From Bacteroides sp. (GTDB lineage: Bacteria > Bacteroidota > Bacteroidia > Bacteroidales > Bacteroidaceae), in assembly GCA_020861095.1 (NCBI GenBank), contig JAJBTC010000156.1:1-36989 (forward strand): 36,989 nt of DNA, written 5' to 3'. The translations under genes and the position numbers were made by a program. A model generated the notes under the pieces. It did no database searches. It saw only the letters and a list, made by a program, of their open reading frames with translations, and had not been told where the DNA came from. Below, one piece after another: positions 1,664 to 17,914 of this stretch; the first letter of the stretch is position 1, and each line of letters begins with the position of its first letter.

Positions 1664-4162
1664 ATGAAAAGATTTCTACCGGACCTATTAGTCATACTGG
1701 CATTCCTTATCATTTCATTCGCTTATTTCTTTCCCGCTGTCATAGAAGGACGTATCCTCTTCCAGCACGATACCGCGGCAGGTGCCGGTGCCAGCCAGGA
1801 GGTGAAAGAATATTACGAGCGCACAGGGCATCGCAGCCGCTGGACCAACGCGCTGTTTGGCGGTATGCCCACCTACCAGATCTCTCCCAGTTATGACTCT
1901 ACGGAACCTCTGCGCTTTGTAGAAAAAGCCTACCACCTCTTCCTGCCCAACTATGTATGGCTGGTGTTCGCGATGATGCTTGGTTTCTACATCCTCTTGC
2001 GTGTAATGGGAGTGTCTGCCTGGCTGGCCGGATTAGGCGGGATTCTCTGGGGATTCTCTTCCTATTTTTTCATTCTGATCTCCGCGGGACACATCTGGAA
2101 GTTTATTACCCTGGCCTATATACCTCCTACCATAGCAGGAATCTTACTGGCGTATAAAAAGAAATACCTGGCAGGGGGAATTCTGACTGCTCTGTTCGTA
2201 GCCCTGCAGATCCAGTCGAACCACGTACAGATGACCTATTATTTTCTATTTGTGATCCTGTTCCTGGTGATAGCTATTTTCATAGATGCCTGGAAGAAGA
2301 AAGAATTAGCCGACTTTCTCAAAGCTACCGGTACACTTGTGGTTGCGGGTCTTATAGGTATCTCTATCAACCTGTCTACGCTGTATCATATCTATCAGTA
2401 TACGAAAGAAACGATGCGCGGACAGAGTGAACTGCGGCAGGAGACCACAGGCGGCAAGAAAGAGAACGGACTCACACGTGAGTATATTACTCAATGGAGT
2501 TACGGGGTCGGAGAGACCTTCAATCTCCTGGTACCCAACCTGAAGGGAGGGGCATCCGTACCTCTTTCCCAGAGCAGTACGGCCATGAAGAAAGCCAATC
2601 CCATGTATGTCAGTCTCTATTCGCAACTTCCTCAGTATTTCGGAGACCAGCCTATGACATCTGGGCCTGTATACATAGGCGCATTTGTGCTGATGTTGTT
2701 TATTCTGGGATGTTTTCTGGTAAAAGGCCCTGTCAAATGGGCACTTCTGGGGGCAACCCTATTCTCTGTACTGTTGTCCTGGGGAAAGAATTTCATGGGC
2801 CTTACAGATTTCTTTATAGATTATGTTCCCCTGTATGACAAATTCCGCGCCGTATCTTCCATTTTAGTGATCGCGGAGTTTACCATCCCCCTACTGGCTA
2901 TACTGGCCATCAAAGAGATCGTGCAACAGCCGGGTTTATTGAAAGAAAAAGCAAACTATCTGTATATCAGTTTTGCCCTTACAGGGGGGCTCTCTTTCTT
3001 ATTTGCCATCGCGCCCCGATTGTTCTTCTCCAGCTACATCCCCGCACAGGAGTTCCAGGCCCTGCAGAATGCCATTCCCGCAGAGCAATTGAAAGGAATA
3101 ATCAGCAACCTGGAAGAAATGCGCGTTTATCTTTTCACTTCAGATGCCTGGCGAAGCTTTTTCATCATTGTCATCGGTACCTTATTGTTATGGATATACA
3201 GGACAGGAAAGTTAAAAACGACTTTTCTGATCGGAGCGATAGCTCTTTTGTGCCTGATAGATCTGTGGGGAGTAAACAAACGCTATCTGAACGATGCTCA
3301 ATTCCAGCCACAAACCCAGAAAACAGAAGCCTTCCGCAAGAGCCCTACAGATGATTTCATTCTGCAGGATCCTTCGCTTGATTACAGAGTACTGAATTTC
3401 GCGACCAGTACTTTCCAGGAAAACTATACCTCTTACTGGCACAAGAGCATAGGGGGGTATCATGCGGCGAAGCTCCAGCGCTATCAGGACATGATAGACT
3501 GGCATATTGTACCTGAAATGAGTGCTGTATATGAGGAGATACAAAGCAGTGAGGGGGATGTGGAAAGAATGAACCCGGATCGTTTCAGGATCCTGAATAT
3601 GCTCAATACCAAATACTTCATTTTTCCGGCCACACAAGGGCAAACCATTCCTGTAGAAAATCCGTATGCCTATGGAAATGCCTGGTATGTATCGGAGATC
3701 AGATATGTGAACAACGCGACAGAAGAGATGGAAGGCCTCAATGATATAGATCCCGCAGAAACAGCTCTGGTAAATCATAGTTTCCGCGATGAGCTTTCCG
3801 GTATCACCGACAGCTACAAGGATACGTTAGCCTCGGTAACTCTTACCAGCTACGAGCCCGATCACCTGGTATACAAAAGTTCCTCTGAGGAAAAAGGTGT
3901 AATTGTGTTCTCAGAGATATACTATCCGGGCTGGGAGGCCACCATCGATGGTACACCTGTGCCTATAGTACGGGCTGATTACATCCTGCGTGCCATTGAA
4001 GTACCGGCAGGTGAACACACTATTGAAATGCGTTTCTCTCCGAAAAGCCTGAAGATCACGGAAACAATAGCCTATGTAGCACTCGTACTTCTTCTGCTTG
4101 CCGTTGTCACATGGATATGGAACCAGAGAAAAAGCATTCTCCATTCAAAGAAAATCTCTTAA
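1664..4162 (+). CDS. YfhO-family multi-pass membrane protein (glycosyltransferase-like)
   Basis: A large inner-membrane protein of 832 residues. The N-terminal ~480 residues hold many hydrophobic segments (about 5-25, 92-145, 150-205, 220-240, 335-380, 400-420, 435-465), followed by another segment near 505-545, a long exported domain, and a last membrane span near 800-822. The late motif PGWEATIDG (about 755-763), with the following GEHTIEMRF stretch, is typical of YfhO/bacterial membrane protein PF09586 members. That family is related to GT-C lipid-linked sugar transferases and, in Gram-positives, is linked to glycosylation of teichoic acids or lipids. The substrate here is unknown. The gene stands between ahcY and a strong hairpin terminator and shows no obvious operon partner. 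Family call is good; exact role is open. Confidence 0.85.
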   Translation: MKRFLPDLLVILAFLIISFAYFFPAVIEGRILFQHDTAAGAGASQEVKEYYERTGHRSRWTNALFGGMPTYQISPSYDSTEPLRFVEKAYHLFLPNYVWLVFAMMLGFYILLRVMGVSAWLAGLGGILWGFSSYFFILISAGHIWKFITLAYIPPTIAGILLAYKKKYLAGGILTALFVALQIQSNHVQMTYYFLFVILFLVIAIFIDAWKKKELADFLKATGTLVVAGLIGISINLSTLYHIYQYTKETMRGQSELRQETTGGKKENGLTREYITQWSYGVGETFNLLVPNLKGGASVPLSQSSTAMKKANPMYVSLYSQLPQYFGDQPMTSGPVYIGAFVLMLFILGCFLVKGPVKWALLGATLFSVLLSWGKNFMGLTDFFIDYVPLYDKFRAVSSILVIAEFTIPLLAILAIKEIVQQPGLLKEKANYLYISFALTGGLSFLFAIAPRLFFSSYIPAQEFQALQNAIPAEQLKGIISNLEEMRVYLFTSDAWRSFFIIVIGTLLLWIYRTGKLKTTFLIGAIALLCLIDLWGVNKRYLNDAQFQPQTQKTEAFRKSPTDDFILQDPSLDYRVLNFATSTFQENYTSYWHKSIGGYHAAKLQRYQDMIDWHIVPEMSAVYEEIQSSEGDVERMNPDRFRILNMLNTKYFIFPATQGQTIPVENPYAYGNAWYVSEIRYVNNATEEMEGLNDIDPAETALVNHSFRDELSGITDSYKDTLASVTLTSYEPDHLVYKSSSEEKGVIVFSEIYYPGWEATIDGTPVPIVRADYILRAIEVPAGEHTIEMRFSPKSLKITETIAYVALVLLLLAVVTWIWNQRKSILHSKKIS

Positions 4163-5124: not shown

Positions 5125-6357
5125 TCAGGCATTCAGCAATCTGCGGGAAAGATAACGCACCGGATACCATACGGAAAAGAAGCCGACCACCAGTACCGTA
5201 ACGAAAATAAAGAAAATATCTCCGGCATGGACACTCACCGGATAGGCATCCACAACAAAGCTACCGTGTCCGTTCCCTAAAGTAATGAACCCGAATTGCT
5301 GCTGGGCAAAACACATCGCCAGTCCCAGAAATATACCCGCAATGGCACCACTGAGCGTGATCAGCCCTCCTTCAAACAGAAAAATACGGGAAATAAGCTT
5401 ATCATCCGCACCCAGATTACGCAAGGTCTCTACATCTTCTTTCTTATCTATAATAAGCATAGACAAAGAACCTATCACATTGAAGCAGGCAATCGTAAGA
5501 ATAAAAGTGAGGAAAAGATAAGAGATCAGCTTCTCGATCTCCATGATACGAAACACATCTTCCTGCTGTTCATACCTGTCCCGGACGATATACTCCGGAC
5601 CCAGATGTTGCTCCAGCTTTCTCTTAACCCCCGCCACAGACTCACCCGCAGATAATTTAAGTTCAACCGCAGAAACCTCCGTTTCATAATCGAACAACTC
5701 ACGGGCAAAATTCAAAGATGTCAGTATATATTGTGCATCGTATTTTTGTTGATTGACCACAAACACCACTCCCGGAGAGAAGAGATAACGACTGTTGAAA
5801 GAGGCAGAAGGGTTGGCCATATTGACACGTGCCTGACGCTTCGGAGCATATAGCTGCAATGGGTCTATGGGCTGTATCCCTGTCCCCAATACAGACACCA
5901 GTTCAATGCCCATGATCCCGTATTCCGCGACCTCGTCATACAATATAAACTCTCCGGCTCCATGCAGAATGCTATCTATCTGAGTAAGCTGCTCAAAATT
6001 ATCATCTACTCCTTTGATCATCGCCATCACCTGCCGGTCTTTGTACTGCACCATAGCACCCTCCTCGAGAGTTTCCGTAAACACTTCCACCTCTTTCCAG
6101 TCACGAATGGCGCAGATATCCGGCAGTTCCGCATCAAAGACTTTTCCCTCACGGACCGTTATCTTCAATTCAGGATCAAAAGCAGTGAAAAAACCGGCCA
6201 CCATATCCCGGAATCCGTTAAAGACAGAAAGGGTACATACCAATGCCAGCGTAGCCAGAGCGACCCCGCAAACAGAAACTGCAGAGATCACATTCACGGC
6301 GTTGTGTTTCTTTTTGGAGAAAAGATAACGCCTGGCGATATAAAAAGGAAGATTCAC
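5125..6357 (-). CDS. LolC/LolE-like ABC transporter permease (FtsX family)
   Basis: A 410-residue inner-membrane permease of the MacB/FtsX fold. It begins with the LolC/E-like cytosolic segment FYIARRYLFSKKKHNAVNVI, a first membrane span at about 22-48 containing SVCGVALATLAL, a long periplasmic domain (50-270), and three C-terminal spans (about 277-305, 325-355, 372-400). LolC/E permeases extract outer-membrane lipoproteins with the LolD ATPase; no ATPase gene lies beside this one, so a partner must be elsewhere. Its start overlaps the rbfA stop by 4 bp (ATGA), showing translational coupling as the last gene of the aroQ-pyk-methyltransferase-rbfA run. The family is clear; lipoprotein release rather than another export role is inferred. 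Confidence 0.85.
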   Translation of the reverse strand: MNLPFYIARRYLFSKKKHNAVNVISAVSVCGVALATLALVCTLSVFNGFRDMVAGFFTAFDPELKITVREGKVFDAELPDICAIRDWKEVEVFTETLEEGAMVQYKDRQVMAMIKGVDDNFEQLTQIDSILHGAGEFILYDEVAEYGIMGIELVSVLGTGIQPIDPLQLYAPKRQARVNMANPSASFNSRYLFSPGVVFVVNQQKYDAQYILTSLNFARELFDYETEVSAVELKLSAGESVAGVKRKLEQHLGPEYIVRDRYEQQEDVFRIMEIEKLISYLFLTFILTIACFNVIGSLSMLIIDKKEDVETLRNLGADDKLISRIFLFEGGLITLSGAIAGIFLGLAMCFAQQQFGFITLGNGHGSFVVDAYPVSVHAGDIFFIFVTVLVVGFFSVWYPVRYLSRRLLNA

Positions 6358-16074: not shown

Positions 16075-17145
16075 TCATGACTTTAGTCGCTTGTAATGAC
16101 ATACCAGCAGTTCCCCTTGTTCATCCCGCAGGTGTATACCGTTGCCTTCACAGTAACGGAAAAATTCACACTCGGCACAAGCTCCCTGACGGGCCCATTC
16201 GCGGTTCCTGAATTTGACGAAACGCTGGTTCCAGACATCTATAAAATGGTCTGTATAAATATTCCCCTGATGAAAATTGCTGCGTATGCTGGGACAGGCC
16301 GAGATGGAGCCGTCTGCCAGAACAGAAGCTACCGTCACTCCCGCACTGCAATGATACAGGCTATCCCGTACCTCTCCTTCGTAGCGGCCCAGAAAGCCTT
16401 CACAACCATAGCTTAGTTTCATCTGCTTTTTCCGCCGTACCTCTTTCACAAACTCAAGTAAACCATTAAATTCTTCACTGGAGAGTTGGAATTCGGGATA
16501 TTGGGCAGCCCTCCCTAAAGGAAATATAGTAAATACCCTCCAGTTCCTGACCCCCATCCGGAACAGGTAGTCTCTGAACTCAGAAAGGCGGGGATAGTTT
16601 TTACGGTTCACACATGTAACCACATCCCAGACGATCTCCCGTTCATGCACCAGCATTTTTATCGCTTCCAGTGCCTTTCCATAACTATCCGCATGTCCTC
16701 TCATCCAGTTATGCTCTTCTTCAAACCCGTCCAGACTAATGGTCATGGAATGAATGCCGGCCGCAAGCAAACGGTCCAGTTTTTTCCGATCGAGCAACCG
16801 GCCATTGGAAACGATGCCCCAGGGAATTTCACGTCTGTAGAGTTCAAGACCAATCTGTTCGATATCCTTACGTACCAAAGGTTCACCTCCGGTCAGGATC
16901 ACATTCATGTCATGAGGGTTTACATGAGGAAGCAGCGAATCCACAACCTGTAGAAAATCTTCCGCCGGCATATCTTTTACAGTGGATGATTGCCGGCAAT
17001 CACTACCACAGTGCTTACAATGAAGATTACAACGCAACGTACATTCCCAGAACAGACTGCGCAATGGATGAAGTTCCTTCTGATTATGAAAGACCTTACG
17101 CGCGATTTCTAACGCCAGACGCTTACGCACAGATAATTCACCCAT
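16075..17145 (-). CDS. Radical SAM/SPASM enzyme of an rSAM/lipoprotein pair
   Basis: A 356-residue radical SAM enzyme. The [4Fe-4S] motif is CNLHCKHC (Cys39, Cys43, Cys46); TGGEPL at 85-90 and GIVSNGRLL near 115 are SAM-fold motifs. The C-terminal SPASM region has Cys266, Cys284, Cys323, Cys326, Cys332 and Cys349; the usual GGC segment is GNG in CEGNGIHL, so one canonical ligand is missing. SPASM enzymes mature peptides and proteins through auxiliary clusters. The best family match from memory is TIGR04133 (radical SAM, rSAM/lipoprotein system), and the predicted lipoprotein partner lies 307 bp upstream on the same strand, which supports this strongly. The reaction is unknown. Heme d1/PqqE-like relatives are less likely given the context. 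A palindromic repeat module touches the stop codon. Confidence 0.88.
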   Translation of the reverse strand: MGELSVRKRLALEIARKVFHNQKELHPLRSLFWECTLRCNLHCKHCGSDCRQSSTVKDMPAEDFLQVVDSLLPHVNPHDMNVILTGGEPLVRKDIEQIGLELYRREIPWGIVSNGRLLDRKKLDRLLAAGIHSMTISLDGFEEEHNWMRGHADSYGKALEAIKMLVHEREIVWDVVTCVNRKNYPRLSEFRDYLFRMGVRNWRVFTIFPLGRAAQYPEFQLSSEEFNGLLEFVKEVRRKKQMKLSYGCEGFLGRYEGEVRDSLYHCSAGVTVASVLADGSISACPSIRSNFHQGNIYTDHFIDVWNQRFVKFRNREWARQGACAECEFFRYCEGNGIHLRDEQGELLVCHYKRLKS

Positions 17146-17452
17146 ACTTACTTCTTTTTACATATTACTGAGCTCTGTCTCTTCCATAAAAAACAAACTA
17201 CTCTCTTCCTTCTGACCCATCAAAAGAAAGGGGTAGCTTCATCCGCTGAACCGGTTTTTATTCAGAGAATCTGAGAATCATATAGTATCGTATTTTCAAT
17301 GCGGAAAGAATCCTTCCATAACATACACAGCCTGTCAGACCAGGAATTTCTCCCGGTCAGAGGCAGACAGAGAAAAATCCGTTTCCGGCTACAGCAAATG
17401 TATGTTTTTCAGCCGGATCAACGGGCGACCAGGTGCCCACACAGTAGCACCA
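17146..17452. other. Spacer between lipoprotein and radical SAM gene
   Basis: 307 bp without a supportable gene. On the minus strand there is only a 20-codon ATG reading frame (MLWKDSF...), too weak to call a peptide. I see no clear terminator or promoter, so the lipoprotein and enzyme could be cotranscribed. Confidence 0.4.
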
Positions 17453-17914
17453 TTAATTGCCTTTCAACTGCACCTGTATATGCTGTGAGGCACTTCCTTC
17501 GTACCAACCATTGCTTCCTTCCGGAGAAATACCCCGGAAATCTATATCTACAGAATCTATCGGTTGGTGAGCAGAAGAGACCTCTTTCTCAGGCAAAAGA
17601 TACATACGGAATCTATTGAATAAACTTTCCCGGATCACAATGAATTCTCCGTTCACATCTGTATATACAATCTCTTCACCGCCCGCTTCAAAAGCGGAAG
17701 CCGGCGTCGGATAATTGTCAGTAACAACGATCCCCAATCCGGATACCCCCTCTCCTGCGGCATCCAGAACAGTCCCCTTCATTTCATACCGGGCATGAGG
17801 GACTCCATATTCCGTGGGCTGTTCACTTTCACAAGAAGCAAATCCCAGAAAAGTCAAGATCATCGACAAAATGCGGTTGATAAAACCCAACCTCCTTTTT
17901 CTACCTATTATCAT
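17453..17914 (-). CDS. Putative radical SAM-associated lipoprotein (substrate candidate)
   Basis: A 153-residue lipoprotein. A basic N-terminus (GRKRRLGFINR) and hydrophobic stretch end in the lipobox GFASC, with Cys28 the only cysteine in the protein. It is followed by ESEQPTEYGVPHARYEMKGTV, here split as Glu-rich linker then YGxPxA and a KGTV strand, the signature I recall for TIGR04134 (lipoprotein with rSAM). The remainder resembles a carboxypeptidase-regulatory-like beta sandwich (VLDAAGEGVSGLGIVVTD, then YTDVNGEFIV). It lies upstream of the radical SAM enzyme on the same strand. Because its one Cys is lipidated, a thioether (sactionine-type) crosslink is unlikely; a modification on other side chains or the backbone is more plausible (inference). 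Confidence 0.8.
   Translation of the reverse strand: MIIGRKRRLGFINRILSMILTFLGFASCESEQPTEYGVPHARYEMKGTVLDAAGEGVSGLGIVVTDNYPTPASAFEAGGEEIVYTDVNGEFIVIRESLFNRFRMYLLPEKEVSSAHQPIDSVDIDFRGISPEGSNGWYEGSASQHIQVQLKGN

Follow-up and report, generated by a model that had tools for sequence, protein, structure and literature searches.

The radical SAM (rSAM) enzymes of family TIGR04133, one of which is encoded next to a small lipoprotein in a 36,989-nucleotide stretch of Bacteroides sp. DNA (the window), are probably PlpY-independent spliceases that place a ketoamide in the membrane-proximal linker of exported lipoproteins. That the motif XYG(x)P, carried by the inferred substrates, is the site at which the enzyme acts is well supported. 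The features of the window on which this reading draws are as follows.

16075..17145, minus strand: rSAM/SPASM enzyme gene, TIGR04133, 356 aa, predicted backbone splicease (ORF, NCBIfam profile, tree)
16099..16350, minus strand: SPASM domain C266–C349, in which the Cys of CX3C is replaced by Gly336 (CEGNGIHL) (sequence, alignment)
16402..16404, minus strand: Cys248 of GCEGFLG, possible replacement ligand (invariant in 15 aligned TIGR04133 sequences)
17008..17031, minus strand: CNLHCKHC radical SAM [4Fe-4S] motif, residues 39–46, followed by invariant C50 (sequence, 15-sequence alignment)
17071..17130, minus strand: N-terminal helix, residues 6–25, before the barrel (AlphaFold2, pLDDT about 77–92 in these blocks)
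17146..17452, no strand assigned: spacer between both genes, 307 bp, apparently non-coding (genes' strand compared with locus L061)
17453..17914, minus strand: lipoprotein gene, TIGR04134, 153 aa, predicted substrate (ORF, NCBIfam profile)
17468..17797, minus strand: beta-sandwich domain, residues 40–149 (AlphaFold2 model; Foldseek)
17798..17812, minus strand: Glu35-Tyr36-Gly37-Val38-Pro39, predicted splice site XYGxP (Y36, G37 and P39 invariant in 15 aligned sequences; enrichment)
17831..17845, minus strand: lipobox GFASC, predicted lipidated Cys28 (sequence; G24 and C28 invariant in 15 aligned sequences)

Two intact minus-strand ORFs are present at these coordinates, the TIGR04133 gene adjoining the TIGR04134 lipoprotein gene. 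The family names had been given in a first-pass annotation, which proposed a profile search with both; the names proved correct, as the enzyme scored 590.1 bits against TIGR04133 (rSAM_w_lipo; cut-off 425; residues 6–355) and the lipoprotein, with its lipobox GFASC, 90.9 bits against TIGR04134 (lipo_with_rSAM; cut-off 39.8), both far above the curated NCBIfam cut-offs. The pair is a catalogued family, named in NCBIfam without a chemistry being given in the profile matches, and the source genome of the window holds one match over cut-off to each profile. Genes around the pair encode a TPR protein, a thioredoxin-like protein, a Mg-chelatase/ComM-like protein and a CoA-ligase-type protein. The spacer resembles that of L061, and at many other loci the two genes lie within tens of bases of one another. 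A hidden small precursor peptide in the spacer was rejected, as no frame longer than about 20 codons was common to the window and L061 on the genes' strand. No RNA element was found in the window at the Rfam gathering score.

The lipobox, YGxPxA segment and beta-sandwich domain that had been described for the lipoprotein are all present, with Cys28 as the sole Cys of the protein and EYGVPHA at residues 35–41. The AlphaFold2 model (mean pLDDT 79.9) comprises a signal helix (residues 2–22), a linker holding the motif and a beta domain (residues 40–149). Confidence was low in the linker (pLDDT <50 at residues 27–33; mean 63 at residues 31–40), and the modelled position of the motif, between signal helix and beta domain and adjoining the least certain stretch, would fit an accessible site. 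Foldseek matches were beta-sandwich domains with a TM-score of at most 0.44 by query; no Pfam match and no PDB sequence relatives up to E 10 were found for the lipoprotein. The second domain of a relative, L215, was assigned by Pfam to CarboxypepD_reg. Sactionine chemistry had been considered unlikely at the outset, and this judgement is upheld because the lipoprotein has no second Cys and 68 of the 122 partner proteins described below have exactly one. A sactionine or ranthionine maturase was rejected on the grounds that the substrate core offers no Cys donor, the only Cys being that of the lipobox.

Co-occurrence across genomes, the other comparison that had been proposed, bore out the association. 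All 18 of the 149 genomes with TIGR04134 over cut-off were among the 32 with TIGR04133 over cut-off (hypergeometric P 6.7e-15; the two genome lists were compared by hand), and the genes are adjacent in many genera. The outcomes named beforehand as refuting the pairing, so far as they are computable, did not arise. A Treponema plasmid also bears the pair, its lipoprotein reading SCYGMPENY. TIGR04133 was over cut-off in 87 of 393 genomes drawn from the same order and, in a draw of 296 genomes from the phylum, only in the window's genome and one other; 7,990 of the 7,998 scored candidates matched the TIGR04133 profile at E 1e-30 or better. The two genes could be ordinary neighbours with no enzyme–substrate relation, as the 307 bp between them in the window might suggest, but the 18/18 co-occurrence, the adjacency in many genera and on the Treponema plasmid, and a motif common to unrelated partners make this highly improbable.

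Partner proteins were surveyed in 114 stretches around TIGR04133-type enzymes, with ORFs called by a simple script and not by a gene finder. Automated searching yielded 124 partner ORFs with YG.P, of which those of L149 (a sigma factor) and L156 were dropped as chance matches, leaving 122 in 95 loci. Addition by eye of L100, L121 and L171 gave 98/114 loci with XYGxP, and inclusion of those with XYG but without the Pro (L138, L139, L152, L159, L168 and L174) gave 104/114 with XYG, all hand-checked. L115, L164 and L185 were cut by contig ends, and no XYG partner was found at L118, L123 (sequence gap), L149, L175, L188, L189 or L190. The L175 partner reads CYAPAP instead of CYGxP, a Tyr-Ala variant. 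L188–L190 form a divergent TIGR04133-like branch (phmmer 166–197 bits to the window enzyme) whose function may differ.

The motif was concentrated close to the enzyme gene. Of the same-strand genes immediately upstream, 73/94 had YG.P; the counts were 31/82 two places upstream, 15/71 three places upstream and 11/65 directly downstream, against a background of 0/21 in opposite-strand genes directly upstream, 5/197 four or five places upstream and 0/185 four or five places downstream. Among proteins of up to 320 aa, the counts were 73/93 directly upstream versus 3/269 four or five places away. No other three-residue or one-gap motif was as frequent in the directly upstream gene, and 1000 residue shuffles gave a mean of 1.3 and a maximum of 6 occurrences, compared with the 73 observed. 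At 20 control loci with other rSAMs of the same order, YG.P was found in 0/61 same-strand neighbours and in one opposite-strand neighbour, in L235; of these controls, L218 was later placed with the PlpX side by the trees, and the L222 ORF is 173 aa with a 43-bit match. Non-partner neighbour clusters occurred in at most 11 of the 114 loci, so that no third conserved gene was found around the enzyme; an RRE or a PlpY gene nearby was likewise rejected, none being conserved around these loci.

Partners were of several builds, namely beta-sandwich lipoproteins, charged helix-like lipoproteins, mini-lipoproteins of 50–75 aa and non-exported repeat proteins. When the 124 motif-bearing ORFs were clustered with motif and signal masked, groups of 88, nine and five and 22 singles were obtained. 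Proteins of the beta-sandwich type make up the largest group. The nine are lipoproteins in which charged, helix-like stretches flank VYGSPE or a similar sequence, and the five are chains rich in Lys, Asp and Ser that carry the site close to the C-terminus. Many of the singles are lipoproteins of 50–110 aa, and they also include the two chance matches and a few that resemble distant members of the group of 88. As this set had been selected by motif, the unbiased figure is given by the 86 upstream genes of 50–320 aa, 21 of which fell outside the TIGR04134-like cluster; 13 of these 21 had YG.P and 18 had YG. Counted by cluster, YG.P was present in 7/14 upstream versus 2/205 distant clusters (P 2.7e-8). 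The sharing of YG.P goes beyond one homologous family, and XYG(x)P, rather than the single Cys or the lipoprotein build, is the near-constant of the partners. The initial description 'single-Cys lipoprotein' is accurate for the window protein but fails as a definition of the partner, since other builds, cleaved signals and non-exported proteins are found.

Within the site, Tyr and Gly hardly vary, and the position two residues beyond Tyr is highly variable (T, V, S, P, M, A, I and others). At 143 sites X was C, E, K, V, M, A, L, Q, G, I, S or N, a variety that is expected if X is kept in the product. Repeated sites within one protein were seen in 17 of the 122 partners. The L142 partner, whose gene follows that of the rSAM enzyme, has no signal and three tandem EC[IV]YGPPPG units, and that of L072 (positions 3700–3948) has no signal and two tandem YGPPP units; both resemble repeated-core RiPP precursors. 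A simple signal rule makes the lipobox-like Cys the residue X in 36 of the 122 partners and gives three with an AQYG start after a cleaved signal, so that the mature protein often begins at the site. In L119, L127, L129 and L139 the signal looks cleaved and not lipid, and the site would become the new N-terminus (AQYG).

These N-terminal positions could mean that XYG(x)P serves only for docking or export and that the enzyme modifies the lipoprotein elsewhere, or around the lipidated Cys in the CYG class. This is improbable, as some small lipoproteins carry the site at their C-terminus, some repeat proteins carry it without having any signal, and no other position was seen to be common to the partner types.

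Lipoproteins encoded away from the enzyme, in enzyme-bearing genomes, also carried XYG in five of six loci (L191 and L193–L196; not L192). No lipobox protein with YG.P was found at six loci with weak TIGR04134 matches; five of these genomes had no TIGR04133 over cut-off, and the sixth (L050) encodes a small lipoprotein with the sequence PMYGIK. Outside the order, L238 (G552) encodes a partner-like protein without the lipobox Cys (FLLNGYDRPQPEYGVREP) in which EYG is kept.

On the enzyme side, the CNLHCKHC cluster motif noted on first reading is present. In an alignment of 15 sequences, the window's included, the SPASM cysteines C266, C284, C323, C326, C332 and C349 were invariant, and the fourth Cys of CX2CX5CX3C was Gly (Gly336 in the window) or Ala and never Cys, in agreement with the earlier reading of CEGNGIHL as a replaced ligand. 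C50 (CGSDC) and C248 (GCEG) were also invariant, and either might substitute for the lost ligand. C248 has no counterpart in the Nostoc TIGR04103 and GDL enzymes but is present in the relatives L213 and L243, both of which also share C50; L213 keeps the Cys that TIGR04133 lost, and L243, from the window's genus, keeps the full SPASM Cys set. The AlphaFold2 model (mean pLDDT 87.8) has a SPASM rSAM fold with an extra N-terminal helix, and its best PDB structural matches were SkfB, SuiB and anSME, with BlsE and PqqE close behind. Like the window enzyme, anSME, SkfB, SuiB and PqqE are SPASM proteins; they modify peptides or proteins by other chemistries and lie outside the tree sample.

Profile scores were rejected as proof of PlpX kinship when taken alone. 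The window enzyme is not a member of TIGR04103, against which it scored 114.4 bits (cut-off 725), and TIGR04053 (134 bits), AhbD (129 bits) and NirJ2 (116 bits) scored slightly higher; trees were therefore built, in which PlpX itself is absent and is represented by a Nostoc TIGR04103 protein. In a tree of 42 enzymes, TIGR04133 grouped with TIGR04103, GDL, NHLP-linked and related enzymes (28 rows) apart from 14 other rSAMs (MftC, NirJ, AhbD-like, TIGR04053, TIGR04347 and others) with support of 100/97, and the same split was obtained in an earlier tree of 53 enzymes (96/95); the earlier tree lacked L232 and L222, and the 42-enzyme tree included only some of the controls. TIGR04133 sits on a long branch (1.59 changes per column), and the 42-enzyme tree did not settle which group is its exact sister. 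A GS after CxxxCxxC, W202 and G250 are common to TIGR04133 and the PlpX side and rare outside, whereas the SPASM Cys lost in TIGR04133 is kept by 12/12 PlpX-side relatives. TIGR04103 is presumably the same family as IPR026482. The latter is given for PlpX (PMC11002830).

Several PlpX-side relatives have neighbours with a comparable motif. The Nostoc TIGR04103 protein, recovered in a plasmid search with the window enzyme (853 bits to TIGR04103), is encoded next to a Nif11 precursor ending SIALYGLPPELF (LYGLPPELF) and a 71-aa downstream gene; a second Nif11 precursor and an NHLP precursor at this locus (L210) had no YG. In L243, positions 5415–6059 (G165) encode a 214-aa protein, directly after the TIGR04103-like rSAM, with six KYGYPC/KYGYPG units; a chagasin-like inhibitor domain was suspected in this partner but is not proposed, as Pfam gave no match. 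L241 has a YGxP neighbour (LLYGTPPV). No YG.P was found beside the PlpX-side enzymes L240, L242, L245 and L218, nor in the one translated neighbour of L213. The GDL-motif peptide maturases (TIGR03913), which act with DUF1843 peptides, are on the same tree side and several of their peptides have an N-terminal PYG or LYG (PYGVAI or LYGVGI); unlike the TIGR04133 partners, these are small peptides and not lipoproteins, without Pro two after Gly and in some cases with YA or YM. At the GDL loci L212, L214 and L239, the DUF1843 peptides begin PYG, LYG, YA or YM and may be splicease substrates too.

The closest characterized counterpart is PlpXY of Pleurocapsa, which makes spliceotides by excising tyramine at XYG (PMC10533398; also PMC11002830, PMC10373908). 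PlpX and TIGR04133 enzymes are both SPASM rSAMs and share a tree side through the Nostoc TIGR04103 protein, and the sites agree in XYG and in some tags in XYGxP: the tags reported as tested contain PIRPGYGLPI or PIRPLYGLPI, with another, AVAAGYGVVFP, lacking that Pro (PMC10533398). PlpXY is described as needing no leader and acting at internal sites, yet it accepted only a minority of the tag positions tested in FtsZ, so XYG alone is insufficient to make a substrate (PMC10533398). The systems differ in that PlpX works with a small partner, PlpY, whereas TIGR04133 has no PlpY neighbour; in that TIGR04103 keeps the full SPASM Cys set, of which TIGR04133 lacks one; and in that TIGR04133 partners are mostly lipoproteins, whereas plp-type cluster precursors have Nif11 or nitrile-hydratase leaders (PMC11002830).

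At this XYG(x)P site the enzyme might instead carry out a different radical reaction on Tyr or its neighbours, for instance crosslinking of Tyr (to a cyclophane), beta-carbon oxidation or epimerization, and the backbone would be left whole. Near-invariant Tyr, Gly and Pro suit any Tyr-directed reaction, the lost SPASM Cys together with invariant C248 could mean altered chemistry, and the nearest solved folds, SkfB, SuiB, anSME and PqqE, belong to peptide modifiers of different chemistry. We regard such a reaction as a serious but rather unlikely alternative, since the widely varying residue two after Tyr would be awkward as a crosslink partner and PlpXY, an enzyme of published chemistry, likewise acts at XYG, with the shared Pro in PlpA2-type tags (PMC10533398). 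Taken together, the motif, the tree, the relatives' YGxP neighbours and the control loci make tyramine excision the best single explanation.

For backbone splicing, the window presents XYG in the partner (E35-Y36-G37) and an enzyme in the same clade as PlpX-type enzymes; a PlpY-type partner was not found, there being no third conserved gene around the 114 loci. The missing PlpY neighbour, the lost SPASM Cys and the long branch count against this reading, as do profile scores that taken alone do not favour TIGR04103, several PlpX-side loci without YG.P and the absence of PlpX from the trees. Prompted by the title of Richter 2024, we speculate that the N-terminal helix (residues 6–25) might replace the missing PlpY-type partner.

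In the proposed splicing mechanism, the enzyme would excise tyramine, cutting most of one Tyr from the backbone, at X-Tyr-Gly-x-Pro in the cytoplasm and without a PlpY partner; the spliced protein would then be exported as a lipoprotein, and an electrophilic ketoamide would be displayed at the membrane. rSAM enzymes are cytosolic and some partners lack signals, as in L072 and L142, and for these reasons modification is expected to precede export. The ketoamide could serve as a reactive handle or inhibit proteases in a covalent but reversible manner, the inhibitory role being suggested because spliceotide products are reported to inhibit proteases (PMC11117315, PMC10373908).

In the literature searched, none of the matches listed (titles and abstract beginnings) dealt with the TIGR04133/TIGR04134 pair, and TIGR04133, TIGR04134 and five other family names were not mentioned there. 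Scott et al. 2022 (Chem 8:2659) is said to be the source for 939 predicted and 27 other characterized splicease systems. That work, the likeliest to include the TIGR04133 family already, or Richter et al. 2024 may cover it. Both window proteins are members of the NCBIfam pair over curated cut-offs, although TIGR04134 covers only one of the several partner types found, and it would be new to assign this catalogued pair to the backbone splicing of exported lipoproteins.

A large enzyme family so far lacking an assigned reaction gains a definite predicted one and an exact predicted site. More tentatively, and with considerable doubt, the Bacteroidales, and a Treponema by transfer, may coat their envelope with backbone-spliced lipoproteins bearing alpha-ketoamide warheads, a single PlpY-free splicease acting on any exported carrier of XYGxP, including those with the lipidated Cys as X, to give protease inhibitors that are anchored in the membrane, bind covalently but reversibly and owe their specificity to the exchangeable X. 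If the splicease assignment is true, a splicease without a PlpY partner would be available as a tool, backbone splicing would be common on the envelope lipoproteins of Bacteroidales and would not chiefly characterize RiPP peptides, and the environment of these bacteria would be exposed to covalent electrophiles that may be protease inhibitors.
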